In this document: positions 1,265 to 31,929 of the stretch, in pieces
Layout: each line of letters opens with the position of its first letter
Numbering within the stretch: position 1 is the first letter of the stretch
NCBI GenBank assembly: GCA_903915655.1
Contig: CAIWTU010000095.1
Span: 1-42,599 of the forward strand
DNA: 42,599 nt
Direction: 5' to 3'
Source: an uncultured Geobacter sp.
Lineage (GTDB): Bacteria; Desulfobacterota; Desulfuromonadia; Geobacterales; Geobacteraceae
Notes under the pieces: generated by a model
Database searches by the model: none
What the model saw: the letters and a program-made list of their open reading frames with translations, nothing else
What the model was told of the DNA's origin: nothing
Program-made: the position numbers and the translations under genes

Positions 1265-1299
1265 TGCACGAATGTAAACTGATAGTTTACATTCGTGCA
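1265..1299 (-). terminator. Perfect hairpin ending the transfer operon
   Basis: Two perfect 16-base arms (1265-1280 and 1284-1299) are separated by three bases. Read leftward, the stem is followed by TTATTTTATA, a fair T-rich tail. It sits 10 bases past the stop of the last transfer-operon gene (1310), so a Rho-independent terminator is the simplest reading. Its perfect dyad symmetry also allows an operator for the XRE gene, which starts 35 bases further on. Confidence 0.65.
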
Positions 1300-1729: not shown

Positions 1730-3256
1730 TTAAATTCTTCCTGTTGCCCGCAAGGCGATACCTTTGCCGAAGCGGTCTGATAATTCCGAAAACACCGTGT
1801 CATCGAATTTCTTCATATTCTGGACGATCATTTCTACTGCGTTAATCTCCGATGCCGCATTGGCGTAACTCTGCTGTGCTACGCTCAGCAGTTGCAGCGT
1901 TTTTTCCTCCAGTGTCTGAATATGCTGCATCCCTTCACCGAGAAGCGCCAACTGGCAGGTCTCCGGCGATGCACCGGCCTTGTTCCCCTTCTGCGTAGAC
2001 ATAATGTTGCGAGCCATCTCCTGCATCTGGACCGCCCGTCCAAACAGGTCGAGCAGCATATAGTAGCCGTAGGCCCGGGCAGTCAGTTCCGCCAGTTTAC
2101 CGATGACCTCACCCTCGGTATTGGTAGCCGTGGCATTCTTGAGGATCAGGCCAACTGACAACGGAGTGCTTTTGAGAAACGCCTCCTCGTCGGCGGTGAG
2201 TGCCGTCTTTGATTTGATCTTGGTGGCGATGGACTGCATCTTGCCGGCCACGTAGACCATCAGGTTCTTGTTGGCGTCGGTGATATCGGCACAGGCCCCG
2301 GCGGTATCACGTCCCTGGGCGGAACCGCTGATGAAGGAGTCGAAGCTGTTGTTTTTGTCGCAGGGGGGGATGTACTGGGCCTGGTAGGTTGTGCCGGTCG
2401 TCGCCGGGTTCTGGATGACTACATCGCCGATGAAACCGCGAACCAACTTGACGTACTCGCTGCTCAAACCTTTCTTGCCGGCCAGGTTTTCCAGAACTGA
2501 TCCATCTCCGAAGACTTGCAGGACTTCGGTCGGGCAACCGGCAGTGGCGCTGGTGGCTGAGGTCTGGGTTGTGCCCGGAACGCCAGGCTTGTTACCGGCA
2601 TTGGTCTTCTGTTCGCTCTCGAACAGCTTGCTGACATCCTGATAAAGATCCTTGGCGCCGCTTGATACCATGAAGTCGGTCTGGGCTGTTTTCATCTCAG
2701 CTTTCAGACTGTCTGACATGACCGACGAAAACGGACTGGCAGCAGTGGCCACCAGCGCCTTGGCCGCCTTGCAGTCGTTCAGTTGCAGCGAGTTCAGCCG
2801 GTCGGTGATGGCTTCGAGGGTCTTGATGGTATCGGCCACTTGGGGAGCAAGGGTCTTCAGGGCGATGTCGAAGGCCGCCGCCGGAGCTGCCGACAGGATG
2901 TTCTGGAGCTTCTGGACCAGGTAATCCACGTTCAGAAACGAGAAGCCACCGAGGAACATATCGATCCCGCCGCAACCAGACTTCAATTTGGGCAGCGAGG
3001 CAGTAAACAGATGATCATCGGTGTTCGCCCATCTGGCAGAGAAACTGCCGCCAGTGTAGTAGCCACGCTTTGACCCTTCATAATAGCTGGGCGAAGTGGA
3101 GCTTTTCTGCTGCACCCAGTCGTCGACCCAGCCAGACCAGGAAAGTACCGGGTTCATGGCAATGGTTGCCGCCAGGCAGGCGGCGGTGGTTCGGGTAATA
3201 ATGGTTCGTTTCACACTGACACCTCTTTTCTGTTGCAGTGGGACCGGCAGACTCAT
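1730..3256 (-). CDS. traH: TraH-like conjugative pilus assembly protein
   Basis: F-type type IV secretion pilus assembly protein that acts in the periplasm or outer membrane. A signal sequence follows a short leader (residues about 14-42, ending near LSWSGWVDDW). The mature N-terminus has the family's aromatic and glycine-rich segment (YYEGSKRGYYTGGSFSARW), then SGCGGIDMFLGGFSF and the segment beginning LQNILSAAPAAAFDIALKTL, typical of TraH. The C-terminal half is helical, also as in the family. At 508 residues it is slightly longer than F TraH. The ATG overlaps the traF stop as ATGA with a GGAG site upstream, implying translational coupling. TraF and TraH normally work together, so the pairing supports both calls. 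Confidence 0.85.
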   Translation of the reverse strand: MSLPVPLQQKRGVSVKRTIITRTTAACLAATIAMNPVLSWSGWVDDWVQQKSSTSPSYYEGSKRGYYTGGSFSARWANTDDHLFTASLPKLKSGCGGIDMFLGGFSFLNVDYLVQKLQNILSAAPAAAFDIALKTLAPQVADTIKTLEAITDRLNSLQLNDCKAAKALVATAASPFSSVMSDSLKAEMKTAQTDFMVSSGAKDLYQDVSKLFESEQKTNAGNKPGVPGTTQTSATSATAGCPTEVLQVFGDGSVLENLAGKKGLSSEYVKLVRGFIGDVVIQNPATTGTTYQAQYIPPCDKNNSFDSFISGSAQGRDTAGACADITDANKNLMVYVAGKMQSIATKIKSKTALTADEEAFLKSTPLSVGLILKNATATNTEGEVIGKLAELTARAYGYYMLLDLFGRAVQMQEMARNIMSTQKGNKAGASPETCQLALLGEGMQHIQTLEEKTLQLLSVAQQSYANAASEINAVEMIVQNMKKFDDTVFSELSDRFGKGIALRATGRI

Positions 3257-4092
3257 GGCCGCTCCTTTTCCTGAAGACGGCGTTTCTTCACGTCGAAGCT
3301 GCCTCCCTTCTGGAATTCGTAGAGCGAATATTCCTCCGGGGAGATGTCACCCTTGAGGAGGCGAACGGCCCGGTATGCCTTGTCCTCGATCTCATCGGCG
3401 GAGATGACGCCTGCCGAAACCGGCAGATAATCCTGATTCCCTTTCTGGATCAGAATCAGGGTCGGCGTGATCTCAACGCTGAACTTGGCTGCCAGTCCAG
3501 GGTTCTCACTGATGTTGACCTTCTTCACGGTCCAGCCGGTCTCGTTGGTGAACCAGTCCAGGATGCGGGATTGCTCATCGCAGTAGCTGCAGTCAGGTCT
3601 CTGGAAATAGATCAGGGCAAAGTCATCCCGGTTGTCTCGCAGTATGCGCTGCCGCTCCTCATTGATCTGGTAGATCCGGGCCAGGTTGCCGGGAGTCGTG
3701 ATCGGATAGTCCTTCTTGGTGGTCAGCTCCGGGTATTTCTGCCAGACGAACTGGGCCACGTTGGAAAAAGCCAGCGCCTTCTTGCGGGCGATTTCCTGGA
3801 CCTCGAAGTACTCCTTCACATTTTCTTCGCTCGGCTTCTGGACAGCCTTTTTCTTCAATGCCTCGGCGAACTCCTGGAACTGGTCGGGGTGCATCTCCCA
3901 GATTTGCTCATAGGAATAATCCTTGAGGGACGGCGCACTTTTGGCCGGTTTCTTCTTCTTTTCCGTTTTGTCGGACTGTTTCTCAGGCTCTTTCTGGTAC
4001 CACCACCAGCCTTTGGACGACTCGGTGTAGTAGCCGGCAGATGCGGTAACAGACATTGAGAGCATCGCCACAACCATCAACGGCCAACGCAT
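3253..4092 (-). CDS. traF: TraF-like thioredoxin-fold pilus assembly protein
   Basis: Exported protein of 279 residues. The signal peptide covers about 1-19 (hydrophobic core, then TASAG). It continues with the family's Trp/Tyr-rich start (GWWWYQKEPE), a helical region, and a thioredoxin-like C-terminal domain from about 155. A CSYC motif lies at 168-171 and a cis-Pro segment follows (VEITPTLILIQKG). F-plasmid TraF lacks the CxxC, but many relatives in other F-type elements keep it and are thought to act as disulfide enzymes for periplasmic transfer proteins. The start overlaps the end of the HD-domain gene by 16 bases and the stop overlaps the traH start. Read in order, it sits between the putative relaxase and TraH. 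Confidence 0.85.
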   Translation of the reverse strand: MRWPLMVVAMLSMSVTASAGYYTESSKGWWWYQKEPEKQSDKTEKKKKPAKSAPSLKDYSYEQIWEMHPDQFQEFAEALKKKAVQKPSEENVKEYFEVQEIARKKALAFSNVAQFVWQKYPELTTKKDYPITTPGNLARIYQINEERQRILRDNRDDFALIYFQRPDCSYCDEQSRILDWFTNETGWTVKKVNISENPGLAAKFSVEITPTLILIQKGNQDYLPVSAGVISADEIEDKAYRAVRLLKGDISPEEYSLYEFQKGGSFDVKKRRLQEKERP

Positions 4093-5501
4093 TGTTCCAC
4101 CTCTTTATTCTTGGGCTTGATTTCTTTCACCATCCGCTTCAGCTGCGGGGTTTTCAGTTCCTCCAACGCTGAAGGCAGCACTCCGAACGCTTCTGCAGTG
4201 AAGGGAATCAGGAGATACGGAACCCTCTTTCCACCTCCGGTAATGATAGAAACCTGCGAGGTGTAGTAGCCGTCTGCAACATGACCGGTTGCGAGGGCGT
4301 TTTTGGTTCTGGCCAGTTCCGATACGACGGTGTACATCAGATTCCGTTTCTCTGATTCAAATCCCTCCGAGGCATACACCACCGGATCGTAGCAGCTGAC
4401 TTCCTTGATGGTCTCCCAGAGAGCATCGGGATTGACATAGATCAGGCCATTAGGCATGGAAACAACAGACCACTGCTCACCCTTCGAAGTGGTTTCCACA
4501 ACATTGATCCGATTTTTCAACGAGGTAATAATGGCGTCAGCGTTGAACCAGTCAGGAATGTCGACGGTCGTTGGCGTGAACTTCTCTTTGGCCGGGTTAA
4601 ATCCGAGAGGGTTGTCCCGCTCTTCGACCGGAGGTAGTGATTTGCTGGAACCGGCATGTTCTGCTTCGACCTTGGCGGTTTGTTCACCACTGTTTTCCAT
4701 TTCACTTTTTTTGCGCTCCAGCATTTCGGCATACAACGCTGCCAACTCGGTTTGTCGTGCTTCATGGTCACTTTGCTTGAGTCCATCGCTCAGGATATTG
4801 TCGCATTTCATCAGGTGATGGCCGGTGACGGCACGGCTGATATCTTCCCGATTGGGAAGTGACATGAATGCCGGAATTCCTTTCAGGATGAGCCCGGCAA
4901 TTATCGGATGGTCGCCACTGCTGTACATGCTGTCGTGATAGGATGGTATTTTGCCGATGTCATGAGCCAGGGCGATGAGGATCATGTCTGCCAACAGCGC
5001 TTCTTGATCAGCCTTGGCAATAAAGTTGCGGGCAACCGTCAGGGTGTGGCGATATAACGGCAATGTCTCCAGCATGGCATATGAATCGTCGGAGTAGATG
5101 CGTTCAGCTTCATCCTTGTGTTTCCTGACAACGGAAGGACAATCGCCTTCCTTGTCAAGCAAGGAGAGAATCCAGATGATCAAGTCTCTACGGACACCAT
5201 TGATGGATGACCGGTGCTCGATCATCTCGCTAAAAAACTGCTCAATCTCTACATGCTGAAATGACGGGCGTGGCCCAGGTGAGGTTTTTTGCCTTCTCTG
5301 TTCACGCCAGAGGTGTGAGGCTTCCTTAATTTCAACCTCTTCGCCTAACCAGAGATTGCTCAATTCTTCCAGTCTTGCTATCTCCTCCGGCAGCTCATCT
5401 TTCTCTAATGCCGGTTCATCACGGTGAGACCATTTCCTTGTGCCATAGCAGCCGAAACTGATTGCTGCTACTGCAGATATGCCAAGCAGCAACGTATTCA
5501 T
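4077..5501 (-). CDS. HD-domain protein, possible MOBH-type relaxase (TraI_2-like)
   Basis: The ATG at 5501 overlaps the coupling-protein stop as ATGA, so I prefer it to the upstream in-frame ATG at 5603; this gives 474 residues. A hydrophobic segment lies at about 4-20. An HD fold follows, with His152, the doublet His180-Asp181 (LAHDIGK) and GHH further on. The remaining C-terminal half has no family I recognise. MOBH relaxases of SXT/R391-type elements carry an HD-like metal site in the TraI_2 domain and lie next to TraD, as here. However, the N-terminal membrane segment and modest length are unusual. The alternative is an HD phosphohydrolase acting as an accessory factor. HD domain confident, relaxase role tentative. 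Confidence 0.6.
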   Translation of the reverse strand: MNTLLLGISAVAAISFGCYGTRKWSHRDEPALEKDELPEEIARLEELSNLWLGEEVEIKEASHLWREQRRQKTSPGPRPSFQHVEIEQFFSEMIEHRSSINGVRRDLIIWILSLLDKEGDCPSVVRKHKDEAERIYSDDSYAMLETLPLYRHTLTVARNFIAKADQEALLADMILIALAHDIGKIPSYHDSMYSSGDHPIIAGLILKGIPAFMSLPNREDISRAVTGHHLMKCDNILSDGLKQSDHEARQTELAALYAEMLERKKSEMENSGEQTAKVEAEHAGSSKSLPPVEERDNPLGFNPAKEKFTPTTVDIPDWFNADAIITSLKNRINVVETTSKGEQWSVVSMPNGLIYVNPDALWETIKEVSCYDPVVYASEGFESEKRNLMYTVVSELARTKNALATGHVADGYYTSQVSIITGGGKRVPYLLIPFTAEAFGVLPSALEELKTPQLKRMVKEIKPKNKEVEQCVGR

Positions 5502-6892
5502 GGCGAGGCAGCCTCTTGGGACTGGATGGGAGACAGCATCGAGGTAATGACTGCCGGCGCCTCGGGGAATATGATTTTCATTTTGGGGTTTTTGGCATCG
5601 CAAGTGGTCCCTTTGAACCGACCGGCATAGGTCATCAGATAGAATTCGCGCGGTTTCAGACTCAATATGTCCTGGACGCGGAGGATGTCCTGTTCCACTT
5701 CGCGAGTCGTGACCTGGTTAGACCCGAATATCCCGGTCAGTACGTTCTGCACCCCAAAGTGCTTGACCACGTAATCACTGGTCTCGGCGTCGGAGCAACG
5801 CATGAAGATCTTGGTGTTGGTGTTGTCGAGGATGCTCTTGCCGAACTCTTCGCCGATAACGGCATAGATCTGGTTCACCGACTGGGCAAAGGCGGTCACC
5901 ATGACATCGGCTGATCCAGCCTTGGCGAAAAGCTCCTCCACCCCCTGATAGAGCAGGCTCTGCGCCTCATCAATGTAGATCGAAAGCGGTGGATCAACCT
6001 TTTGCCGGTTGGAGAGATAGACCCTGCCGACAAAAGACTGGATCATGGAGAGGAGCACCTTGCCGAGTGTGGCCGAAGCCTCGCGGGTGATCATGGCGCC
6101 GGTATGGACAACCAGAATGACCCCTTCACCGGCCTCCAGTTTATTGATGAAACGGTTGGAATCTGCCTGGCCGATTATCTTGCCGATATTTCCGGATGAA
6201 AGTTCCATCAACGCGGTACGTAGCGTTGAAGAGACCTTGGCGTAATATTCCATGGGCGACTTGAGGATGTCCTCAATCATACCCGCTGTAAGGTCAGCTT
6301 CAGTGGTGCCGATGCTGCGGAGTGATTTCATGGTTGCATCGAGAGATTCACGGCGAATGCGTTTCCGTATTTCATCGATGTTCATGATCGGCAGGTTGCC
6401 GTGTTTTTTTGCCTGGATGATGTAAGCAGAGACCACAGCTGTTGTGATCTCCTTGGCAATGTTCCGGTAAAATGGTTCGCGGCCTCCCATAATGCCCGAA
6501 ACGATATGCCCGACCAGTTCGTCCGGCATAAAGTAGAATGCCATCGGATCGACCACGGCTGAATATTCCGGGAATATGGGGGTGACGAGCATCAGATCAT
6601 TCAGGCGCTTTTCTTCGCGGGCAACCTCATAGATCTTGGTGAAGATCTGTTGATCACCCTTGGGGTCAAAATAGACCACCGAGTATCCTTTGCGGATGTC
6701 CTGCTCTATCAGGTTTTCACACAGGCGGGTCTTACCGACACCGGTGGTGCCGAATACGAAGGTGTGCCGCTTCCTGTCGGAGTCAGGTATGATGATGGGA
6801 ACAAGCTTTGTCCTATGATCCATGTTGACGCCGGTTCCCAGCTCGGTCATGAATTTTGACGGATTATCGTCGCGCTTCTTGAATGGAAACAT
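5498..6892 (-). CDS. TraD/VirD4-type coupling ATPase without membrane segment
   Basis: Conjugative coupling protein family (TraG/TraD). Walker A is GTTGVGKT at about residues 48-55 and Walker B is SIYIDEAQ at about 304-311. Between them is a typical all-alpha insertion, and LSLKPREFYLMTYAGR near the end matches the C-terminal core. I start it at the ATG at 6892, which has a GGAGGAG site, rather than 6919; this gives 464 residues. Most coupling proteins have an N-terminal transmembrane anchor, but none is seen here, so this is a soluble or partner-anchored form. The single hydrophobic segment of the next protein could substitute. It would recruit the DNA-relaxase complex to the secretion channel. 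The start overlaps the NusA-like gene by 29 bases. Confidence 0.85.
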   Translation of the reverse strand: MFPFKKRDDNPSKFMTELGTGVNMDHRTKLVPIIIPDSDRKRHTFVFGTTGVGKTRLCENLIEQDIRKGYSVVYFDPKGDQQIFTKIYEVAREEKRLNDLMLVTPIFPEYSAVVDPMAFYFMPDELVGHIVSGIMGGREPFYRNIAKEITTAVVSAYIIQAKKHGNLPIMNIDEIRKRIRRESLDATMKSLRSIGTTEADLTAGMIEDILKSPMEYYAKVSSTLRTALMELSSGNIGKIIGQADSNRFINKLEAGEGVILVVHTGAMITREASATLGKVLLSMIQSFVGRVYLSNRQKVDPPLSIYIDEAQSLLYQGVEELFAKAGSADVMVTAFAQSVNQIYAVIGEEFGKSILDNTNTKIFMRCSDAETSDYVVKHFGVQNVLTGIFGSNQVTTREVEQDILRVQDILSLKPREFYLMTYAGRFKGTTCDAKNPKMKIIFPEAPAVITSMLSPIQSQEAASP

Positions 6893-7595
6893 GCAGGTGC
6901 TCCTCCAGTTCCTTTCCAACTGAGTTGATGATTTCTTTCGGTATTCTTGCCGGAGTCACTACGGAACTGTAGGCTCCTGGTACGCGCTCAATGCACGTGA
7001 TTCCAGCAATGCGGCTGCGCTCCTGCAACAGGAGGCGGGGCAATTCTTTCGATGTGCGACTGAGCATTATCCTGACTTTGGAATACCTCTTGTTGACCAT
7101 GACCGGGACAACACTTGAGATGTAGAACTCCTTCACGCTGCCGATGCCGTAACGCCCCACTTCATGAAACGGCTGGAATCGGGCCGGGCAGACTCCGCAG
7201 AGGATCAGCCGTCGGTAATAGTCGGCAATCTCCAGCGAGACAATCAGTGCGCCATCGTCGGCTATCCGGGAAATCTCGCCAGGGGCAGAATACCCTCTCA
7301 ACTGTTTCAATCGATCAGCCTCATTCAGTGTTCTGCGTTTCTGTAGCTCCAATTTGATTTGATACAGCAGATGTCTCCGCAATTTTCCGTTGATATCATC
7401 CAGGGATATATTGATCGGTTCTCCATTTCCATCTGGGTAGGCAACTATCTCCAATTGCTCATCTATCCTGACACACACATGTGATCGGAGGGTGCCAGTA
7501 AGAGTTTTGGCAATGGCAACCTCAACGGCATCCATCGCTTCCTCAGTCGGCAATCCGCTTTCAGCCAGGATTTCAGCGGGAAGCGACGATGCCAA
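6864..7595 (-). CDS. NusA-like protein (N-terminal and S1-like regions) in transfer operon
   Basis: About 243 residues from a TTG overlapping the transglycosylase stop; a later start such as Met21 is possible. By eye it follows NusA. Residues about 10-52 match the N-terminal pattern (GLPTEEAMDAVEVAIAKTL, then VCVRIDEQLEIVAYP). A basic helix lies at about 70-100. An S1-like segment covers about 100-175. The block VRIMLSRTSKELPRLL with the following RIAGITCIERVPG mirrors the NusA segment (ILSRT...E.L..LF...VPEI...V.I...R.PG) that links S1 to KH1. The KH domains beyond that are mostly absent. It lies between the transglycosylase and coupling-ATPase genes. A role in antitermination of the long transfer operon is inference. 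The resemblance is by inspection only. Confidence 0.55.
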   Translation of the reverse strand: MASSLPAEILAESGLPTEEAMDAVEVAIAKTLTGTLRSHVCVRIDEQLEIVAYPDGNGEPINISLDDINGKLRRHLLYQIKLELQKRRTLNEADRLKQLRGYSAPGEISRIADDGALIVSLEIADYYRRLILCGVCPARFQPFHEVGRYGIGSVKEFYISSVVPVMVNKRYSKVRIMLSRTSKELPRLLLQERSRIAGITCIERVPGAYSSVVTPARIPKEIINSVGKELEEHLHVSIQEARR

Positions 7596-8088
7596 AGGCT
7601 TCCTCCCAAGGGGTCATCTTCGAGACTCTGGTAATAGAGGCAAGCTGTTCACTTCTCTGAAGTGGCCGTTCCTGTCTGACAATGCGGGCGATCCTGGCAG
7701 CATACCGGTCGCGCTTGGACGGGGTGCGGGAGTTGTAACAGCCAACTGCCGGCCAAGTGTAGCCGTAGTCACGAATACACTGGGAGAGTACCCAGGCGCC
7801 GACCATGACGTTTGTGCAGGGATCGGCGAGCGTCCCCCAAGGAATGCCCAGTTTCCGCAGCGTCGGCTCCCATGAGGAATTGATCTGCATGAGGCCATAA
7901 TCGTAGCTGCCGTTTGTGTTGTAGTTAATTGCAATCGGGTTAAAGCTGCTCTCTCCCTTGGAGATCGCATAGAGGAGGTTTGGCGAGATTCCGTACCTGG
8001 TACCGGCTTCTTCATAGCAGAAAGCGTCTGCCGGTCTTGTTGGAACGGCAGACATTCCCAGTAACAGTATCAGAGTGGCGAGTCGCAT
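7573..8088 (-). CDS. Lytic transglycosylase (SLT, VirB1/Orf169 type)
   Basis: 171 residues with a clear signal peptide (about 1-22, cleaved near PADAFC). A soluble lytic transglycosylase domain follows, with catalytic Glu46 (SKGESSFNP), then YDYGLMQIN at about 62-70 and the AVGCYNS motif (about 110). Such small enzymes open the murein for conjugative or type III apparatus, which fits its place as the first gene of the transfer operon. The C-terminus (about 130-171) is basic and not part of the catalytic fold. Its ribosome site, AGGGGG, lies within a possible hairpin (see 8093-8119). The stop overlaps the next gene's start. Confidence 0.88.
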   Translation of the reverse strand: MRLATLILLLGMSAVPTRPADAFCYEEAGTRYGISPNLLYAISKGESSFNPIAINYNTNGSYDYGLMQINSSWEPTLRKLGIPWGTLADPCTNVMVGAWVLSQCIRDYGYTWPAVGCYNSRTPSKRDRYAARIARIVRQERPLQRSEQLASITRVSKMTPWEEAFGIVASR

Positions 8089-8092
8089 GATT

Positions 8093-8119
8093 CCCCCTAC
8101 GTATATAATCTATAGGGGG
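8093..8119 (-). promoter_or_regulatory. Inverted repeat covering the operon's first ribosome site
   Basis: CCCCCTA (8093-8099) and TAGGGGG (8113-8119) flank an AT-rich centre. In the leftward transcript the downstream G-run is the ribosome site of the transglycosylase gene (ATG at 8088) and can pair with the upstream C-run. It could hide the ribosome site or act as an operator. Confidence 0.4.
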
Positions 8120-8200
8120 GGCAGGTAGTTGTTAATGCGCTTCAAAGTAGCAGCGGAGTTCAAAATGATTTTAGCGTTTATATATACGCGTTTCTTTTAT

Positions 8201-8267: not shown

Positions 8268-8354
<87 letters not shown>

Positions 8355-8879: not shown

Positions 8880-10143
8880 TGTTGAGTGCCACTACATCGA
8901 TAACGGTTTTATGTGTCATGACATCGCTAACACTCAGTTGATTTAACGTAATTTGTAGTTGAATTCATCAACCTGGTTTTTGTCCAGGAAGAGTTTCAGT
9001 TTCTGCTCTTTGACATCGATAGTAGCCACCACGTATTCAAGCATTGTCTCCGGCGGAACCGAGAATAATTCTCCGAAGATATTCAATTTAAGATCGCTGC
9101 GAATTAGGCGCACAACGTGATATTTGCCCGCCTCCGGTTTATCTAACCGATACTTGGGAGGGTTCTCTTCTGTTGGAAACCTCAATTTGGTGTTGGAAGT
9201 GGCAAGGGCTTTCAGCGGCGTATCACCTTTAAGTTTGCTATAGCGATACTTACTGTTATGACGTTGTTCGAACACCAGTGAACCTGATCGCAGGTCTTCT
9301 AATGATTTCATAAGGACTTTGCCGAGAAACCTCTGCTGATAACGGTCGTTGAAGTTCTCTATCATTCCGTTTCTCCATGGCTCGGCCATTGGAATAAACC
9401 AGGTTTCAACACCGTTGAGTAAACAAAGCCGGATAAGCGGTCCCATTCCACGGGGATGTGTCGGGCTTCCAAAGAAAGACATTGCATTGTCAACCTGGAT
9501 GCGATCTGGGATTCCCATCCGTTTCCATGCACCCCAGAATCCATCAAGTATCATTTGACCTGACTTGGTAGGGGCAGGATGCAAGCCACATCTGACAGTT
9601 GCTGTATCGACGATATTCAAGCTATAGAAACGAACCGGGCCCTTCAGGTAACACGGACCAACAAGATCAGCTTGATGGGTCTGATTCGGTAATGTTGAAG
9701 GCAGAACAGGGTATACCGTGCCCTTGGCTTCATATTTACCCGTCCGTCGATGTGTCAGTTCGTTTTTGGAAAGAATCCGGTTGATTGTCCTGACCGACGG
9801 TAACTGTTTGACGCCAAGGTCTTCCATCTCCCACAGGATTGCTTGGGCACCACAGAACAGATCCTGATTATAGAGATTGAGTCTAACCATTTTAACGATT
9901 TCCTCGATCTCAGATGACATATGGTTTGGAGACGCAAGAGGCCGACGAGAACGCTCCTCACACCACAAGAGCTCGTTTTCGGTGTATCGCTTGACCCATT
10001 TATACAGCCAGAACTTTGACTTGCCGAGCGATGTGCAGATGGATTCAGGTCTCTCGCCATTCTTGAACCTCTGAACGGCCAGAATCCGATGATGCTTGAT
10101 TACATCTTCCACGAACACCTCCATATTCAATAGGGTGTTCACA
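8880..10143 (-). mobile_element. IS481-like insertion sequence
   Basis: A single transposase nearly fills the element. Possible ends begin TGTTGAGTGCC at 8880 and, on the other strand, TGTGAACACCC ending at 10143. These match only partly, so the exact ends are approximate. No target duplication was identified. The right end lies immediately before the truncated DUF2127 gene. Confidence 0.55.
8943..10142 (-). CDS. DDE (rve-type) transposase, IS481-like
   Basis: 399 residues. An N-terminal helix-turn-helix region (about 15-60, SICTSLGKSKFWLYKWVKRY) is followed by an integrase-type catalytic core with all three acidic residues: Asp in HQADLVG (about 158), Asp in IQVDNAMSF (about 218) and Glu in WRNGMIENFNDRY (about 265). 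The length and full DDE set suggest an intact enzyme. I chose the IS481 group from the single ORF and HTH-rve layout; an IS3-like orphan is the alternative. Confidence 0.85.
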   Translation of the reverse strand: MNTLLNMEVFVEDVIKHHRILAVQRFKNGERPESICTSLGKSKFWLYKWVKRYTENELLWCEERSRRPLASPNHMSSEIEEIVKMVRLNLYNQDLFCGAQAILWEMEDLGVKQLPSVRTINRILSKNELTHRRTGKYEAKGTVYPVLPSTLPNQTHQADLVGPCYLKGPVRFYSLNIVDTATVRCGLHPAPTKSGQMILDGFWGAWKRMGIPDRIQVDNAMSFFGSPTHPRGMGPLIRLCLLNGVETWFIPMAEPWRNGMIENFNDRYQQRFLGKVLMKSLEDLRSGSLVFEQRHNSKYRYSKLKGDTPLKALATSNTKLRFPTEENPPKYRLDKPEAGKYHVVRLIRSDLKLNIFGELFSVPPETMLEYVVATIDVKEQKLKLFLDKNQVDEFNYKLR

Positions 10144-22584: not shown

Positions 22585-23326
22585 TCACGCCATACCACCA
22601 CGTACAACGAGAGCCTGGGCGATGAAATCGACATTACCGGGAACTATCAGCTCCGGTTCACGGCGGATGATAGTTAGTGCCTTCTCTTTCCTGGCCGATA
22701 AGGCCTTTTGCTGCTCCTTGCTTGACGGCCATGCCACGACAGACCCGTTCGGCAAGATAGGCGTGGGCGGCATCCTTCTAGCGCTTTACACCTGCGGCAA
22801 GTCGCTGGGCTTCAGGAGGCAGACCATATCCCCCTCGCAGCAAGAGAAGGTGCTTGACCGGACAGAGATCGATTTCCGCTCCTTCTGACTGTCGAACACC
22901 GACCAGGCGGCACTCTCTGGTTTCCTCCTGAGCAAGATCGACAATTTCAAAATCGGGTTTACGTACCACAGAGCGCAGGGCCAGATGAAAAATATACGGC
23001 TGGGTGGCGGTAGGATCGACGAAGAGCGCTCCACGAAGGGGATCCCTGCCCAATCGACTGCGAACCAGTTCACGAAATGATTCGAAAACCGGCTCACCGG
23101 GATGCATCCAAATGCACGATTAACGGTCAGGCGGCCGGAGAACGGAAAGCTGATTTCTCTGGTACGGTGGGTAGGACTCCAAGGTTGCCAGCAGAGGATC
23201 TGCGGCATTTTTCTGAACCGATTTCAGGTTGAAGAAGCCGCCGAGATCACCATCAATTTCCATGCCTATCAAGTATGAGGCAGAGGAAAGAAACTTATTG
23301 CTTTGCATCCCCTGGCCAAAGAGCAT
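22585..23326 (-). pseudogene. C-terminal remnant of a large SNF2-type helicase
   Basis: Pieces in order: IGMEIDGDLGGFFNLKSVQK through SVLRPPDR, an in-frame TAA, then MHPGEPVFESFRELVRSRLG, RGALFVDPTATQPYIFHLAL, CPVKHLLLLRGGYGLPPEAQ, a frameshift near 22775, and EKALTIIRREPELIVPGNVD with FIAQALVV. This matches the C-terminal extension of SNF2-like helicases that often carry a DUF3883 domain and occur in defence islands. The motor domain is absent. Its upstream end overlaps the recD 3' end, so recD's last codons and this remnant share about 32 bases. Confidence 0.6.
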
Positions 23327-25115
23327 CCTTGAGTCCAGACTTCCGGACTATCCTCCTGGAAACAGCAGTGAGGAACAGATCTTTACTTCCCCATATATCC
23401 ACATTTGCCTTTGCCCTGGTTATGCCGGTATAGACCAGTTCCCTCGTGAGAACTTGCGAATCGGAATCAGGTAGGAGAAGCAGCACCTGGCTGAACTCAG
23501 ACCCCTGGCTCTTGTGTACCGTCATGGCATAAACCGTCTCGTGCGTTGGTAGGCGCAACGGAGATAAACTTCTCACCCCGCCGTCAGGAGCAGCAAAGAA
23601 GACACGGGGGTGCCAGTCGGACTCAGGGTCGGGAAGAACTATCCCCACATCACCATTGAAAAGCTTCAAACCGTAATCATTGGCAGTGATCATCACCGGC
23701 CGTCCAGGGTACCATCGGCTACGCGGGTCAATCAGTCCCTTTTCGGCAAGAATTTCCTCCACAAGACTGTTGATGCCGGCAACACCATGAATCCCCTGCC
23801 GCAGGGCGCAGAGGATACGGAATGAATCGAATGACGCGAGCGCCTCCGCCGGTGATTGGGCAGCAAGGTACCTGCCATACCCATCAACGACTTTACAGAC
23901 AAGGGATTTTTTCATATCAGTGGCCTTCGGAAAACTCCGCCATGCGATATCTTTACATCTGTCCCCTTGCAGAAGCGAAACAGCATCATAGCCTTCACCT
24001 GCATTAATGGCTCTGCTCACCTCCCCTATTCCGCTATTTTCATCGAACCGGTAGTTCATTTTCAGGACCACCAGGGAGTCTTGGAGAGGTGGAAGGGAAG
24101 TTTCCGGGGCTCCGTTAAGAATCGTTTCTTTTGCAACCTTTTCCACGAAGACTGCAAATCTATGGGAATACGGCTCGAGGCGGCTTCCGCCACAAATGTC
24201 ACCGAGCACTGCCCCAGCTTCAACTGATGAGAGTTGGTCCCTGTCACCAAGAAGGATGAGCTTCGCTTCGGGTTTGAGGGCGGTTGCGAGCTTGGACATC
24301 AGGGGAAGTGCAACCATGGAGGCCTCGTCAATAACGACCGCGTCGAACGGCAACGGATTTTCCTTCGAAAAACGGAATCTTATTGAATTACCAATGGCGC
24401 CGAGCAACCTGTGGATGGTCGTAACCTCATCCGGGATCCGATCCTTTACATCCTCGGCACAGTCCAGCTTTTCCTTCAAGAGGCGTATGGATTCCTTGAG
24501 CCGGGCAGCAGCCTTGCCGGTGGGAGCCGCAAGGGCTATCCGTAAAGGGCTATCCTTCGCCTGCTCTATAAGCAATGCGATGATCTTTACTACCGTTGAT
24601 GTCTTGCCGGTCCCAGGCCCCCCGGATATTACCGTGAACCTCTTTCGCACCGACGCAACAGCCGCCACCTTCTGCCAGTCGGTCTCGTCTCCCGATTTGC
24701 CCGGGAATAACCGTCGGAGCCCGTCCGAAAGGACAGTTTCTTCAATTCCAGTACATCTGCCAGCCGCTTTATCGAGTATGACCCTTGCCAGTTCCTGTTC
24801 ATAATTCCAGTACCTGTAAAGGTAAAGCCGGCCGTTGCCGTCCAGAACCAGTGGTCGGAAATCACCGGGTTGACCCACAACCGGGAGGGACTGGAGATAC
24901 CCCCTCAATTCCTCCATTGAGGGGAGGCATTTCTCCTCTCCATCGACACGAACAACACTGCCTGCGTAATCGCCCAGATCAAGGCAGATGTTACCATTTC
25001 CCACGGCGTTGCTGGCGAGGGACACAACCAGTTTGAGCACGGGAGAGGTGTCACCCGCCTCCCGGCAGATGAAATCCGCAAAATACTTATCAATGTGACT
25101 CAACTCGAAATTCAT
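23295..25115 (-). CDS. recD: RecBCD alpha subunit, RecD helicase
   Basis: 606 residues. SF1B helicase subunit that drives the 5'-ended strand of RecBCD. Walker A is GGPGTGKT at 165-172, Walker B is VVIDEASM, and the C-terminal UvrD-like motif TVHKSQGSEFSQVLLLLP is present. The N-terminal about 110 residues form the RecD interaction domain with RecB and RecC. The ATG is two bases after the recB stop (TAGGGATG), so the order recC-recB-recD is one operon. The gene appears complete. Its 3' end abuts a decayed helicase. Confidence 0.95.
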   Translation of the reverse strand: MNFELSHIDKYFADFICREAGDTSPVLKLVVSLASNAVGNGNICLDLGDYAGSVVRVDGEEKCLPSMEELRGYLQSLPVVGQPGDFRPLVLDGNGRLYLYRYWNYEQELARVILDKAAGRCTGIEETVLSDGLRRLFPGKSGDETDWQKVAAVASVRKRFTVISGGPGTGKTSTVVKIIALLIEQAKDSPLRIALAAPTGKAAARLKESIRLLKEKLDCAEDVKDRIPDEVTTIHRLLGAIGNSIRFRFSKENPLPFDAVVIDEASMVALPLMSKLATALKPEAKLILLGDRDQLSSVEAGAVLGDICGGSRLEPYSHRFAVFVEKVAKETILNGAPETSLPPLQDSLVVLKMNYRFDENSGIGEVSRAINAGEGYDAVSLLQGDRCKDIAWRSFPKATDMKKSLVCKVVDGYGRYLAAQSPAEALASFDSFRILCALRQGIHGVAGINSLVEEILAEKGLIDPRSRWYPGRPVMITANDYGLKLFNGDVGIVLPDPESDWHPRVFFAAPDGGVRSLSPLRLPTHETVYAMTVHKSQGSEFSQVLLLLPDSDSQVLTRELVYTGITRAKANVDIWGSKDLFLTAVSRRIVRKSGLKDALWPGDAKQ

Positions 25116-25117
25116 CC

Positions 25118-28100
25118 CTATCCCCCGACCGCTACAAGTGTTCTTGTCAGCTCCTCGATCATGCCTACAGGCGGGAGATCCCTGAAGATGCTAAAATTCT
25201 CGCCCCGCTCAGGGCTCACCCCTCTGAGGAACACGTAGATCACGCCACCAAAGTGGGTTTCATATCTGTAACCCCTGACCCGCATGGAAAGGTAACTGTT
25301 CAGGGCAACCGTATAAAGGAGATACTGCAGTGGATAAAGGTTGAGCTCCATTGCCTTCCCGAGGCTTTCTTTGCCGTAATCTTCATGCCTCTTGCCGAGG
25401 TGGTTCGATTTCCAGTCAAGCAGGTAAAACCTCCCTCCATGCTCAAAAACCATGTCCATGAATCCGCGGACTATACCACTCACCGGCCTGAAACTCATCA
25501 AGGAACAGACCTTTAGAAGGTCTGCGGATCCCTCGCTGTCGCTCCACTTTCGGATACACTCTTTCAGCAGATCGGAAGTGATGAACTTAAGCGGGAAGAA
25601 AAACTCGAGTTCGGTGATCCAGCTTCCCTTGCGGAGATTGGAGAGTTGAAAAGTCCCTGCTTGCGACGACAAGGGCGTAGCAAGGACATTGCCGACCATA
25701 TTGCAGAGATGTGGCTGCCAATCGGCAGGGTAACCATGTTTTTCTCTTTTTCTCTCAACCAGTTCCCTGACCAGATCTTCATCGGCGTCACTGAAGTCGA
25801 TCTCTTCGAAAATCTCATGCAGAAAAATCCCCGCCTGCACACCCCTGGGAAAGGTGAAGATGCTCATCCCCTTTGACTCTTCACTGGCAACAGCAAGCTC
25901 AAGAGCAGCAGCTCCTCGCCCTGTTTCGTCCCGGTCCGGAAGTTCAACGACAGCGGCATCGTGCTTTGCGAACGATGTGAAGCTTGCGACCCGCCAGTCT
26001 CTGTCGATGGCAGATGTAAAATTCCTGAGGACAACTGGTTTGCCTTCGTCCCGCGACGGAAGATAAGGGACCTGGAATTCTGCAGCAGGCATTTGAGAGA
26101 TGGAGATGGTACCTTTTCCCTTCCCGGCGACGTTCCGCAACTGCATTTCCAGTTCTGCTGCCGAGAGACTCTTTACCTCTCTCGCAACCCCTGCAACCAG
26201 GTCATCCTGAGTCTTTACCTCCGCAGGGGCATGAAAAAGGTAGGAAATCGGCGAGGTCTCGGGCCTGTTTTTCACGTTTCCGTTGACCTTACCTGCAACG
26301 AGGTAGCACCTGTATTGCGCTCTGGTAAGGGCCACATAAAGGAGACGGAGATTCTCCGCGAGGATCTCTTTCTCCGCCAGAATTCGATGACTTTCGAGCT
26401 CGGCTGAGCCGAAATCCTTGATCATCGTGAAGTTTTCGTGAAAGGTTACCAGATCGCCGTCTGTCTTGATCCCTCCCCACATGAACGGACAGAAGACGAT
26501 CGGGTACTCGAGTCCCTTGCTGACGTGGACCGTGACGATCTTTACCGCTTTCTCGTCAGTCTCAAGGCGGAGCTGGTACTCTTCGGATTTTTCTCCTGAG
26601 CTGACCTTCTCGCCAAACCAGGTCAGCAGACCTTCTCTGCCGAGTCCCTTTTGCCGCCCTGCCTGATGAATGACCTCGAAGCAGTGCAGGAGATTGGTCA
26701 GCCTCCGCTCGCCGTCAGGCCTCCTGAGAAGCCTGCCGCGCACCTCTTCACGCGCCAGGAGTGCCTGCGACATGACCATGAACCCACGTTCCAGCCAGGA
26801 CTGGTGGTAGTCCCGGAATTTCTCGAGGCATTTTTCCCAGGCTTCCTCGTCCTCGAGAAGAGAAGCGATGTCGTTTCCAGACCGCCCAAGTATGGCGGTT
26901 GCCAGCGCCCCCCTCACCTTGTACTCGCTCCCAGGGTCTGCAAGGGCTGCGAGAAGGGTACAGACTTCCCTTGCCTCGTTGGTGGTAAAAATGCTTTGAT
27001 CACTGCGCATGACGCTCGGTATGCACAGTTCTCTCAGCGCGTCCTGCAGATAGCCGGCCTGGCGGTGACTCCGCACGATAACGGCCATGTCCCCCGGGAC
27101 AACCGGACGCTCTTTGATAGATGCCTTTCCCTTCGCAGCATCCTGAAGAAGCCGAGCGATTTCTGCTGCGACGGCCAGCGACACCGCATCGTTCGCCTCA
27201 CCGACGGTGAGCGGTTCACCGTCCTCGTTGGGCGGCATGGTCCAGAGCTGGAGGGGGGCGTCATCCTCCACTTTAAGCACGAGACCCCCCTTGCTGTCGG
27301 TCTTGCCGCTCTTTATCGGATGGTAGGCGATTTCATTGTACACAAAGGGCTTCCCCTCGTTGTCGAAAACCGTGTTGAAGGCATCGAGGAGCCGTGGCGT
27401 TGACCGCCAGTTGCTCGTAAGGGTGAAGCGCCTGTCACTTTCAACACGACCGGAAGCTTCCATGTAAGCGAAAATGTCTGCTCCTCGGAAGCTGTAGATA
27501 GCCTGTTTCGGGTCACCTATCAGGAAAAGAGGTATCTCCGGGCCGGCGTATATCTTCTGGAAGATGTCATACTGGACCGGGTCGGTATCCTGGAACTCAT
27601 CGATCAGGGCAGCACGGTATTTACCCCTAAGACACTCGGCAAACCTGTCACCTGACTCGCCGTAGAGGGCAGTGTAAAGGTCGTTTAGGAGATCGCTGAA
27701 AAAACGAATGTTCAGTTCCCTCTTGCGCAAGGTGATCTGCTTCCTGCAAAACTCGACCAGATCCCACTTAAGGAGGAGGAGCCGCTGCTCCACCCTTGAC
27801 TTCAGTCTTTCGCAGATGTCGAAGAAGGGGTGTGCCGGCGCAGTGCCCGTAGGTTTGGTACCCTTGAGGATCCCTGAAGTGCAGAATTTATTGAACCCGT
27901 TGAACAGGTCATAGGGATTGTCGGCAGCCAGGAAAGAATCCATCCCCTCATAGAGTTCAGGCAGAAGGTCGGACTTGTAGACGCCTGCCTTTCTGCTCAG
28001 ACCCTTGTCGGTATCCAGAATATTAACGATTTCATTCTTGTACTTTTTCCATGCGTTGCTGACCTCTTCCAGGGAATTCCCGCAGTCATGGTCGAGAGAA

Positions 28101-28729
28101 GAGAGATCAGATGAGCCAAAATCGGGAACGATCTTCATCTTCGGGTTGTCGAGCATCTTCTTGATGAAGCCGGCAAAGTAGTCGGGAGAATACCCTTTAG
28201 CCAGGGCGGATATCATAAGCGGCGCCTGGTCGCCGAAAAAGTTCATGCGCCAGAAGTCATCTGCGGCCTCCTGCAGCAGGTCGGAAGGATCAGTGACGAG
28301 CTCTGTATTGTAAAGCGAGCCGCTTTCGAAGGCATTATCCTGGAGTGCTCGAAGGCAGAAGCCATGGATGGTGAAGATGGAGGCGATGTCGAAGGACTTG
28401 AGCGCCAGGTCGAGAATATCCCGCGACCTCTCCCTGCCAGGACCTTTCTCGTTTGAGTTTTTGAAGAGGTCTTCGAGGAACGAGTCATCTGTGAAACCCC
28501 CGGAGAAGAGATCGAGTGCCTCGCGAATCCTTCCGCGAATCCTTCCCCGCAACTCTTCAGTCGCCGCCTCGGTGAAAGTGACCACGAGAATCTGATCGGG
28601 AGTCAGTTCCTTCTCGATGAGAAGGCGCAGGTACAGGCAGGCGATAGCATAGGTCTTCCCCGTGCCCGCACCGGCCTCGATGAGGTTACTCCCTGACAAC
28701 TCGACTTTCAGATGATCCAGTTCTCTCAT
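25118..28729 (-). CDS. recB: RecBCD beta subunit, RecB helicase-nuclease
   Basis: 1203 residues, normal length. UvrD-type motor: Walker A GAGTGKT at 20-26, motif Ia VVTFTEAATEELRGR, Walker B IDEFQDTDPVQYDIF, and motifs GDPKQAIYSFRGAD and VTVHVSKGLEYPIVF. The C-terminal nuclease domain carries the metal-binding Asp in RGFMDMV and LLDWKSN at about 1105, equivalent to DYKSN in E. coli. The enzyme unwinds and degrades DNA from double-strand ends and loads RecA. The ATG lies two bases after the recC stop, with a GAGGAA site. Confidence 0.96.
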   Translation of the reverse strand: MRELDHLKVELSGSNLIEAGAGTGKTYAIACLYLRLLIEKELTPDQILVVTFTEAATEELRGRIRGRIREALDLFSGGFTDDSFLEDLFKNSNEKGPGRERSRDILDLALKSFDIASIFTIHGFCLRALQDNAFESGSLYNTELVTDPSDLLQEAADDFWRMNFFGDQAPLMISALAKGYSPDYFAGFIKKMLDNPKMKIVPDFGSSDLSSLDHDCGNSLEEVSNAWKKYKNEIVNILDTDKGLSRKAGVYKSDLLPELYEGMDSFLAADNPYDLFNGFNKFCTSGILKGTKPTGTAPAHPFFDICERLKSRVEQRLLLLKWDLVEFCRKQITLRKRELNIRFFSDLLNDLYTALYGESGDRFAECLRGKYRAALIDEFQDTDPVQYDIFQKIYAGPEIPLFLIGDPKQAIYSFRGADIFAYMEASGRVESDRRFTLTSNWRSTPRLLDAFNTVFDNEGKPFVYNEIAYHPIKSGKTDSKGGLVLKVEDDAPLQLWTMPPNEDGEPLTVGEANDAVSLAVAAEIARLLQDAAKGKASIKERPVVPGDMAVIVRSHRQAGYLQDALRELCIPSVMRSDQSIFTTNEAREVCTLLAALADPGSEYKVRGALATAILGRSGNDIASLLEDEEAWEKCLEKFRDYHQSWLERGFMVMSQALLAREEVRGRLLRRPDGERRLTNLLHCFEVIHQAGRQKGLGREGLLTWFGEKVSSGEKSEEYQLRLETDEKAVKIVTVHVSKGLEYPIVFCPFMWGGIKTDGDLVTFHENFTMIKDFGSAELESHRILAEKEILAENLRLLYVALTRAQYRCYLVAGKVNGNVKNRPETSPISYLFHAPAEVKTQDDLVAGVAREVKSLSAAELEMQLRNVAGKGKGTISISQMPAAEFQVPYLPSRDEGKPVVLRNFTSAIDRDWRVASFTSFAKHDAAVVELPDRDETGRGAAALELAVASEESKGMSIFTFPRGVQAGIFLHEIFEEIDFSDADEDLVRELVERKREKHGYPADWQPHLCNMVGNVLATPLSSQAGTFQLSNLRKGSWITELEFFFPLKFITSDLLKECIRKWSDSEGSADLLKVCSLMSFRPVSGIVRGFMDMVFEHGGRFYLLDWKSNHLGKRHEDYGKESLGKAMELNLYPLQYLLYTVALNSYLSMRVRGYRYETHFGGVIYVFLRGVSPERGENFSIFRDLPPVGMIEELTRTLVAVGG

Positions 28730-28731
28730 AA

Positions 28732-31700: not shown

Positions 31701-31929
31701 GGACAGTGCAGAAAAGCCGCCATACCAGGGAGTTAGGGAATGGAAAATCACCGTTTGCCCAGACCCCGAAATGCCTGGAGAGTTCCATCGAGAGCCAACG
31801 TTGCATCCCCTTGCTCTGCACTACGATCAATTCGGATGCGAATGGGGAATTCAGCGGTTCCTTGAGGACGGTAAAGAGCGTTGTGACCAATTTTTCCATC
31901 TGATTGCTTGTGTAGATTCTAAGAGGCAT
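28732..31929 (-). CDS. recC: RecBCD gamma subunit, RecC
   Basis: 1065 residues, close to the usual size. RecC scaffolds the complex and recognises the Chi sequence; it is a degenerate helicase without Walker A. Recognisable blocks are VVQSKGMQRWLSMELSRHFG at about 36-56, SDILNLRG with QIHSCHSPMREMEVLYDNIL in the middle (about 330-360), and IPFRVVALVGLNDGAFPRQG. The gene heads the operon. An ATG at 31929 is preceded by AGGATGAAGTT. The Chi octamer of this genus is not known to me, so Chi sites cannot be scored here. Confidence 0.95.
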   Translation of the reverse strand: MPLRIYTSNQMEKLVTTLFTVLKEPLNSPFASELIVVQSKGMQRWLSMELSRHFGVWANGDFPFPNSLVWRLFCTVLPEVPDSSPFSADIMTWKIMGLLPGFLDREEFSELKNYLAGDLDGLKLFQLSEQIADAFDQYTLFRSDMLLEWEKRRGGDWQEVLWRELSSGGDGKHRGWLKQEFCRKIADGLSLAEELPERISVFGVSYLPEYHMDVLMAISSRTEVNLFLPSPTREYWGDIVSARQKASRKPEERAVLTEGNPLLASLGKVGRDFSEMIVECGGESVCQKDIFVDTDGSTMLKAIQSDILNLRGAEEGRQRREIAGDDISIQIHSCHSPMREMEVLYDNILSLLDGVAGLAPRDILVMTPDIEAYAPYISTVFEGCQDPLQKIPFSIADRSLGNEGQVASVLLKLLALPGSRFTVVQVLDILESPPVAKQFDLGTEELDTIRVWLEETRVRWGLDSEDRARLGLPPYRENSWRAGIDRLLLGYAMPDEDNSIFNGILPYDEIEGNRSETLGKFLLFLSRIRDLAGRLGSPRSLTLWRDEIRMLLTEFIAADDDSAREVAAIADLAETMGVVEEGSGFSGQVEIGVIRSWLSERLARDERGLGFMTGGVTFCGMLPMRSIPFRVVALVGLNDGAFPRQGRPPGFDLIARNPKPGDRSLRDEDRYLFLESLLSTRDCFYISYVGQSVKDNSEIPPSVLVSELVDYIKDGFTSPGGDAENYIVTTHRLQAFSSDYFEGGTRLFSYSNENCEALAERRSNPWYPSEFISTAISVPPDEWKDIPLQRLLRFFDNPSRFLLENRLGIRLEEVAAPLEEREPFAVERLDNYKLKQELVECVLHGGDVHDLLPVARCCGILPPAHHGEAVFEDVAAGVSEFVDDLRGLVTGIAPMKPLDFEISLGGFRLTGRVDRIWEHRMIRYRCAKMKAKDQIRTWIEHLVLNHLMPSGYPVESTLFMTGDSITFREVGDTSTILLDLFNLYWEGLTTALRFFPESSMAYAHKQAWDIKKAKKKWATGYNDFPGEGDDPYFRLCFGDVDPFDDDFERIARTFFEPLIQNLSEE

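Follow-up and report, generated by a model that had tools for sequence, protein, structure and literature searches.

Why would a conjugation operon carry a gene resembling nusA, and what could its product do there? This question is raised by a stretch of 42,599 nucleotides (nt) from an uncultured Geobacter sp. (contig CAIWTU010000095.1 of assembly GCA_903915655.1), referred to below as the window. An original prediction, made from the sequence alone, had placed a NusA-like protein between a lytic transglycosylase and a coupling ATPase and had offered two roles for it, an operon-specific antitermination or pausing factor and a partner of the relaxosome. Here, the derivation of this protein from NusA is well supported, and its operon (op1) shares a leader element with a second transfer operon (op2). 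On balance, we regard it as probable that the protein is a minimal NusA paralogue of elements of the F type (MPF_F), which would bind RNA polymerase and alter pausing or termination on both leader-marked operons. The gene and its parts are as follows.

Positions 6864..7595, minus strand: NusA-like gene of 243 codons, with a TTG start at 7595 behind GGGAGGAA.
Positions 7299..7583, minus strand: N-terminal domain and long linker helix (residues 5-99), resembling the NusA N-terminal domain without its globular head.
Positions 7050..7298, minus strand: S1 (OB-fold) domain (residues 100-182), with strands between residues 103 and 179.
Positions 6876..7049, minus strand: KH1 remnant (residues 183-240), alpha1-beta1-beta2-alpha3-beta3, with no alpha2 or GXXG.

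The window genome has a single match to the NusA model, a normal nusA on another contig (415 bits), and the NusA-like gene is therefore an extra copy. Its relationship to NusA was clearest at the level of family profiles. When a 31-sequence family alignment was compared with 56 NusAs by hhalign, a match of 97.4% was obtained (E value of 1.4e-11, score of 86.3, 199 collinear columns), and controls with 1 reversed and 49 column-shuffled NusA alignments reached at most 0.6% and a score of 19.4. Four NusA loci without a recognized DPxGA motif were excluded from the NusA set. An alignment of 20 members picked by hand (A1) gave weaker matches to NusA (71.5%, E value of 3.6e-5 over 104 columns; 66.8%, E value of 5.3e-5 over 187 columns), and thus the strong profile result needs the 31-sequence family. 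With the 20-sequence profile, all seven of the PDB matches listed were NusA, though at E values of 0.43 to 0.73. The NCBIfam NusA model TIGR01953 was matched at an E value of 1 or better by 6 of these 20 members. Since even the best of them (E value of 4.2e-5, 22.7 bits) did not reach the cut-off of 253.4 bits, the protein was filed as NusA derived and not as a NusA orthologue.

The predicted structure gave the same answer. The AlphaFold model of the window protein had a mean predicted local distance difference test (pLDDT) score of 88.0, and in a Foldseek search NusA occupied ranks 1 to 16 of the 18 matches at E values of ≤0.001 (2.1e-13 to 7.2e-5 for NusA). The 14 best VIA-align rows were likewise NusA, with Z scores of 16.1 to 11.8. 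These included the long chains 9a74_B (Z of 16.1, 220 residues, root mean square deviation [rmsd] of 6.0) and 4mtn (Z of 15.7, 219 residues, rmsd of 5.0) and the S1-KH part of Mycobacterium tuberculosis NusA, 2atw_A (Z of 14.6, 137 residues, rmsd of 2.2), and they were followed by S1 proteins at a Z of about 10 over 70 to 80 residues. Identity to NusA in the structural alignments was about 13 to 24%. A distant family member, L077, which is 18% identical to the window protein (alignment A3), was modeled with a pLDDT of 88.6 and retrieved NusA at ranks 1 to 12 (Z of 14.2 to 10.9). The region-by-region resemblance claimed in the original prediction is thus upheld by the family profile and by Foldseek, and in the structural comparison that it had proposed the matches begin in the N-terminal domain and run through S1 to KH1.

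When the window protein was searched alone, Pfam gave no family at all, neither NCBIfam nor a phmmer search of PDB retrieved NusA, and BLASTP against the NusA of its own genome found no match. A single-sequence check would therefore have rejected the relationship. A phmmer match to allophycocyanin (E value of 0.0086) was dismissed as chance; it was absent from the family-profile list and from the best 50 rows of the fold search. In PHROGs, nine families were matched, each by one member only. The NGN domain was not among the Pfam families matched at an E value of 1 or better by any of the 20 members.

Which parts of NusA have been kept? Both structure and profile place the S1 domain after the long linker helix. 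In the KH1 remnant, only five residues separate beta2 from alpha3, and about 12 residues of alpha-2 and the GXXG loop (GMRG in NusA) are missing from the seven members displayed beside NusA. The GXXG loop of KH domains contacts RNA. The protein ends after KH1 beta3 with nothing beyond, and so KH2 is absent, in agreement with the earlier statement that the KH domains are mostly missing. The remnant is nevertheless the most conserved part of the family, with residues 183-240 holding 14 of the 27 positions that do not vary in the 20-sequence alignment.

In the N-terminal part, the AlphaFold model has helices at residues 7-13, 17-36, and 70-99 and strands at residues 39-44, 48-53, and 61-63. Structural matches to the long NusA chains begin at model residue 1 or 2, the 199-column profile alignment begins inside this domain, and a gapless but weak match pairs profile positions 6-42 with residues 12-48 of Escherichia coli NusA (37 residues). 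According to PMC4642336, the globular head is also absent from M. tuberculosis and Planctomyces NusA, and nuclear magnetic resonance placed L27, L31, I43, and V45 of E. coli NusA, which are affected by RNA polymerase, in the interface. In the gapless alignment these residues correspond to V24, I28, V40, and V42 of the window protein, columns that hold V, I, L, M, or F in 31, 29, 26, and 26 of the 31 members, respectively; over residues 8-95 the mean of this fraction is 0.32, and 11 of 88 columns reach ≥0.9. Judged from the alignment, the four columns fit a kept polymerase-binding face, and a hydrophobic core could also explain them.

Is the gene a regular part of its operon, or an accident of this genome? 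Its neighbors in the window are the following.

Positions 7573..8088, minus strand: SLT lytic transglycosylase, op1 gene 1 (PF01464, E value of 1.5e-19).
Positions 5498..6919, minus strand: TraD-type coupling ATPase (TIGR03743, E value of 1e-42; PF10412/TrwB_AAD_bind, E value of 5.2e-15).
Positions 4077..5603, minus strand: HD-domain protein, the conserved gene after TraD (PF01966, E value of 5.3e-6).
Positions 3253..4092, minus strand: TraF-like pilus assembly protein (TIGR02740, E value of 4.8e-37).
Positions 1730..3256, minus strand: TraH-like pilus assembly protein (NF010279, E value of 1.6e-27).
Positions 1265..1299, minus strand: strong terminator-like hairpin 3' of TraH, with a 16-pair stem and a T-rich tail.

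On the minus strand, op1 thus runs from SLT through the NusA-like gene, TraD, the HD-domain protein, and TraF to TraH, with the hairpin at 1265..1299 as a possible end, and the NusA-like frame overlaps the neighboring frames on either side. The predicted place between the lytic transglycosylase and the coupling ATPase is therefore confirmed. In the same genome (3.36 Mb, 171 contigs), op2 lies on contig C81, with matches to OmpA-like, DsbC, TraL, TraE, TraK, TraB, TraV, and TraC proteins, of which TraV alone exceeds its profile cut-off; the gene order is that annotated on plasmid pPRO1. With TraD, TraF, and TraH adjoining the NusA-like gene and TraL-E-K-B-V-C elsewhere in the genome, the operons are of the F type.

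The family was found at 39 places in 32 of 147 related genomes at an E value of ≤3e-10 and in 36 genomes at a looser limit of 0.1; 5 of 44 places, which were weak (E values of 0.036 to 0.08), were left out of the place counts. When the phylum was sampled more widely (395 genomes), matches were obtained in 10 genomes, including four new and distant ones. Among the 39 places, SLT was directly upstream in 37, TraD directly downstream in 34, and both were present in 33. The exceptions were G090 and G058, which have no TraD at that place, two G124 loci cut by contig ends, G143, which lacks an SLT match, and G140, whose homologue is an orphan. Conversely, 34 TraD places were found in 144 genomes at an E value of 1e-60 or better, and the NusA-like gene was beside 32 of them; the remaining two start where a contig ends. 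The HD-domain protein follows TraD in most loci. This profile search for the gene beside TraD, also suggested by the original prediction, shows that the NusA-like gene is a regular part of the F-type transfer operon.

Plasmids and distant genomes extended the picture. Related TraD proteins were found on eight plasmid records and a family member on six of these, namely, pSD, pPRO1, and plasmids of Desulfosarcina BuS5, Nitrosophilus labii, Campylobacter iguaniorum, and C. upsaliensis. Plasmids pSD and pPRO1 are typed MPF_F, and the NusA-like gene is annotated there as a hypothetical protein. About 9 kb separate the gene from TraD in Desulfosarcina BuS5, and in the three Campylobacterota plasmids, which carry diverged versions, one or two genes intervene. 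The three Campylobacterota proteins matched the 28 other members at 98.4% (E value of 8e-15) but NusA directly at only 16.1% (E value of 0.0016). In the distant loci L175, L177, and L178, TraD is directly downstream and no SLT match lies beside the gene; in L176, TraD follows after about 370 nt. One open reading frame (ORF) upstream of a related TraD was checked in each of Aliarcobacter and Thermovibrio and gave no family match, and no relative was found in the viral contigs searched.

The second finding that carries the interpretation lies immediately upstream of op1.

Positions 8089..8126, minus strand: leader element ACCTGCCCCCCCTATAGATTATATAC-GTAGGGGGAATC, immediately 5' of the op1 start codon; the core is found again ahead of op2.

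The element is nearly invariant across ten related loci. In the window genome, the core is exact at op1 and recurs with one mismatch at C81:103888, 28 nt before the OmpA-like gene of op2. The core pattern was found at 21 sites with ≤2 mismatches versus 18 for the reversed pattern, these sites including one further one-mismatch site and 18 two-mismatch sites. Since the core pattern alone is not rare, the case for the leader rests on its position and on the op1/op2 pairs. Both operons were available from 25 genomes or plasmids. In these, op2 is preceded by the element that stands before op1, and its sequence varies with the element type, for example, ACCTTCCCCCCCTCGTGATTAT in G012, CACCTTCCCCCC..AAGATWATCA in G073 and its relatives, and CTGTCCCCCC..TAGATAT in G006. 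Plasmid pPRO1 has a long stretch that is nearly identical between op1 and op2, and G029 has an identical stretch of 40 nt. Of these 25 leader pairs, 23 outscored all 300 shuffles; in the two exceptions, G031 and G124, the match was found further upstream of op2. When nine element types picked by hand (G124 included) were paired in every possible way, the true pairing scored 445 against a mean of 201 and was the single best of 362,880. Genome G081 carries two element types, each with a matched op1/op2 pair. The two operons converge over about 46 to 135 kb on 14 contigs holding both and diverge on pPRO1, pSD, and contig G029:C53. Thus, a leader element is common to both transfer operons and changes in concert between element types, and such matching operon starts suggest a private transcription control for conjugation.

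Other identities of the leader were considered and set aside. As a sigma-70 promoter, it offers a -35/-10 pair in the window that has, by eye, no counterpart in other leaders, and the heat-shock and sigma-54 promoter patterns do not fit it. It was also rejected as the physical boundary of the mobile element, since L151 has an integrase gene beyond it (ORFs resembling this integrase by eye occur in L148 and L155) and since op1 and op2 are far apart. A search of Rfam with six loci gave no match up to an E value of 0.1.

In some genomes, what follows the element appears to differ between the two operons. In G031 and G124, the op2 element, which is almost the same as its op1 counterpart over 42 to 47 nt, starts about 160 nt ahead of the op2 start codon, and a long terminator-like hairpin with a T-run separates it from the first op2 gene; the layout of G120 is the same, with the element at about 150 nt. 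When the 3' arm was omitted from folding, an alternative pairing was predicted in all three leaders between an upstream CGGC-containing stretch and the GCCG of the terminator 5' arm. In G100 and G114, the op2 element itself is the 5' arm of a 10-bp hairpin, CCCCCTACAG-ATATTTG-CTGTAGGGGG-ATTTTTTT; the G100 leader folds at -26.4 kcal/mol, and none of 200 shuffles was as stable. By their predicted folds, 5 of 35 op2 leaders, belonging to 2 of about 10 types, look like attenuators. A strict script, which can miss bulged stems (the hairpins of G031, G124, and G120 were found by eye and then folded), detected no terminator in the interval from element to gene in any of 32 op1 leaders. Terminator-like hairpins upstream of the element, as in op2 of G006 and G018 and in two of the 32 op1 leaders, would not matter. 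Because terminator-like hairpins occur in some op2 leaders and none was found between element and gene in op1 leaders, op1 seems to be open, while op2 can be gated by a terminator. Around op2 of the window genome (18.3 kb), 20 intrinsic terminators were found on both strands versus 17.2 expected, which gives no support for a terminator-laden op2 there.

What might the protein do with these leaders? Its N-terminal domain would bind at the RNA exit channel of the host polymerase and replace the housekeeping NusA, without bringing the KH1-KH2 RNA platform of the latter. The NusA N-terminal domain binds RNA polymerase and a phage antiterminator (PMC4499122), the KH domains bind RNA (PMC4499122), and NusA is in competition with NusG for the flap tip (PMC8940904). 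The polymerase-facing half and S1 have been kept in the window protein, and KH2 and the KH1 loop, parts of NusA that bind nascent RNA, have been dropped. The common, element-specific leader would be the natural mark of the target operons, and on these two operons pausing and termination would be changed, either by lowering termination or by altering pausing. We infer, as we do for RNA polymerase binding and for the action on the operons, that antitermination is more likely than enhanced pausing. The two operons might further form an early-to-late relay, in which a freely transcribed op1 makes a stripped NusA that displaces host NusA at the leader and passes the op2 terminators, with specificity between leader and protein in each type; we offer this version only tentatively and would not expect it to hold in full.

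Several observations weigh against an action of the protein on the leaders. In 30 of the 35 op2 leaders, that of the window genome included, no terminator was detected between element and gene, although bulged stems could have escaped, and the alternative-pairing fold beats base shuffles only in G124 (0 of 200 as stable), with 35 and 56 of 200 in the others. Type G002 separates poorly from the window type (39 versus 38), the op1 element of G105 is reduced to its 3' half, and inspection by eye showed no op1 element for G143, G144, and four distant plasmids (L141 to L144). In the N-terminal domain, residues T33-G34-T35 stand in place of the basic KKK at positions 36-38 of E. coli NusA. The homologue in G140 is an orphan. 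In addition, the closest neighbor, TraD, also fits a role in DNA transfer, and the leader could be a promoter instead of an RNA site. The last point is strengthened by the upstream sequence; upstream of ACCTG, nothing is shared among the window and the four loci closest to it (L147, L148, L149, and L187), and the other five of the ten loci fall into two groups, each sharing an upstream gene.

A promoter of the transfer genes, read by an element-encoded sigma-like or CI-like regulator while the NusA-like protein acts elsewhere or generally, is accordingly a possibility that we take seriously, without thinking it the probable answer. The loss of similarity just upstream and the sigma-like genes nearby favor it. 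ORFs near transfer operons matched sigma-70 region 3 or 4 at L147:1784-2767 (E value of 3.6e-6), L172:12892-13506 (1.5e-5), and L246:2096-2923 (2.4e-4, below the Pfam cut-off), and these are possible element-encoded sigma factors; pPRO1 has a phage CI-type helix-turn-helix protein before op1 (E value of 2.2e-6), and an AT-rich TATAGATTAT or AGATAT lies some 15 to 40 nt before the start codon. However, inspection by eye shows no conserved -35 hexamer at the usual spacing across leaders, and in several leaders the element forms hairpin arms with downstream sequence, which is relevant only if the element is transcribed and so favors an RNA site. Such a promoter is compatible with our interpretation and leaves room for a NusA-like effect downstream. 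Control of translation or stability of the tra mRNA through the leader, with the C-run pairing to the G-rich ribosome-binding site, appears quite improbable. A C-run/G-run hairpin covers the site in op1 of the window (-14.4 kcal/mol), and in op1 of pPRO1 the site is also covered by a hairpin (-12.7), but that of the window is only modestly better than shuffles (z of -1.4, with 18 of 200 shuffles equally stable), no such hairpin forms in the two op2 leaders folded alongside it, and KH1 has lost the GXXG loop with which KH domains contact RNA.

The protein could instead be a nucleic acid-binding accessory of DNA transfer, either an adaptor of a shortened TraD or a relaxosome protein, whose S1 domain would bind the transferred strand or RNA. 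The constancy of TraD as the downstream neighbor, which extends to the distant L175, L177, and L178, speaks for this, as does the form of TraD itself: residues 40-201 of the window TraD match positions 165-321 of the SXT TraD model (TIGR03743), and the N-terminal part, roughly the first 125 to 165 positions of the model, has no counterpart. PLSDB lists no relaxase for pPRO1 or pSD, so that part of the DNA-processing set is unaccounted for; the HD-domain protein (4077-5603 in the window) is a candidate relaxase of these elements. Nevertheless, the NusA N-terminal domain has been kept with its hydrophobic contact columns, the gene is separated from TraD in Desulfosarcina BuS5 and in the three Campylobacterota plasmids, and the shared leader points to regulation, and we consider an accessory role rather unlikely. 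Because of the shared and covarying leader, the terminator-like hairpins of some op2 leaders, and the kept hydrophobic N-terminal positions, the evidence leans toward an antitermination or pausing factor and away from the relaxosome partner that had been the other option.

In phage lambda, the early product N carries RNA polymerase past terminators in later operons that share the nut site. The proposed mechanism resembles this arrangement in its early product and in later operons marked by a common site; it differs in that N uses the host NusA (N-NusA contacts are described in PMC4499122), whereas the element here brings its own NusA derivative. As in housekeeping NusA (TIGR01953), the order is N-terminal domain, long helix, S1, and KH1, with a fold match of about 220 residues; unlike it, the window protein lacks the globular head, alpha-2/GXXG, KH2, and any further C-terminal part, and its gene sits in transfer operons. 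Resident NusG-type paralogues occur in tra operons (PMC7593976), and RfaH and the plasmid NusG paralogues are similarly general elongation factor paralogues that have been specialized and linked to a conjugation operon (PMC7593976), but they belong to the NusG family, whereas the window protein is NusA derived. The conAn system likewise places an antitermination component at the head of a long operon for conjugation; unlike the present case, it consists of the ConAn1 protein and conAn2 RNA and is Gram positive (PMC8955417). According to that paper, no processive antitermination system other than RfaH is known for Gram-negative conjugation operons (PMC8955417). LoaP, which antiterminates through antagonizing NusA, is a model for the proposed outcome, the antagonism of NusA at a leader terminator, but it is a NusG paralogue and its target is an antibiotic operon (PMC12691694).

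A search of the open literature, with subscription papers outside its scope, found no NusA paralogue in a transfer operon and no specialized NusA for mobile DNA. Within that literature, the earlier statement that no such paralogue is known therefore stands; NusG copies serving mobile DNA are known, but a NusA copy is not. New here is the common leader of op1 and op2 alongside a NusA-derived family. NusA is essential in E. coli (PMC7593976), which makes its dissection in vivo difficult. A naturally minimal form that lacks KH2 and GXXG, carried by mobile elements together with defined leaders, would allow the parts of NusA that control pausing and termination to be tested and would offer a handle on the expression of long conjugation operons beyond the case of the F plasmid and RfaH.

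Some minor features of these loci were also recorded. In two of the Campylobacterota plasmids, the NusA-like gene and TraD flank a gene for a separate protein, which by eye contains hydrophobic stretches (L142:4616-5431 and L143:4547-5359). That of L142 has no Pfam match, and the arrangement looks as if TraD had been split into two genes. The TraD matches contain one in-frame stop in L091 to L095, L099, and L110 (TAA in L099, otherwise TGA), which may be the natural end of a shorter TraD. Upstream of op1, the window contains a (TCTG)n repeat at about 8284-8340 and an IS481-family transposase at 8943-10142, and a recD-recB-recC set (exodeoxyribonuclease V) lies on the minus strand at 23295-31929.

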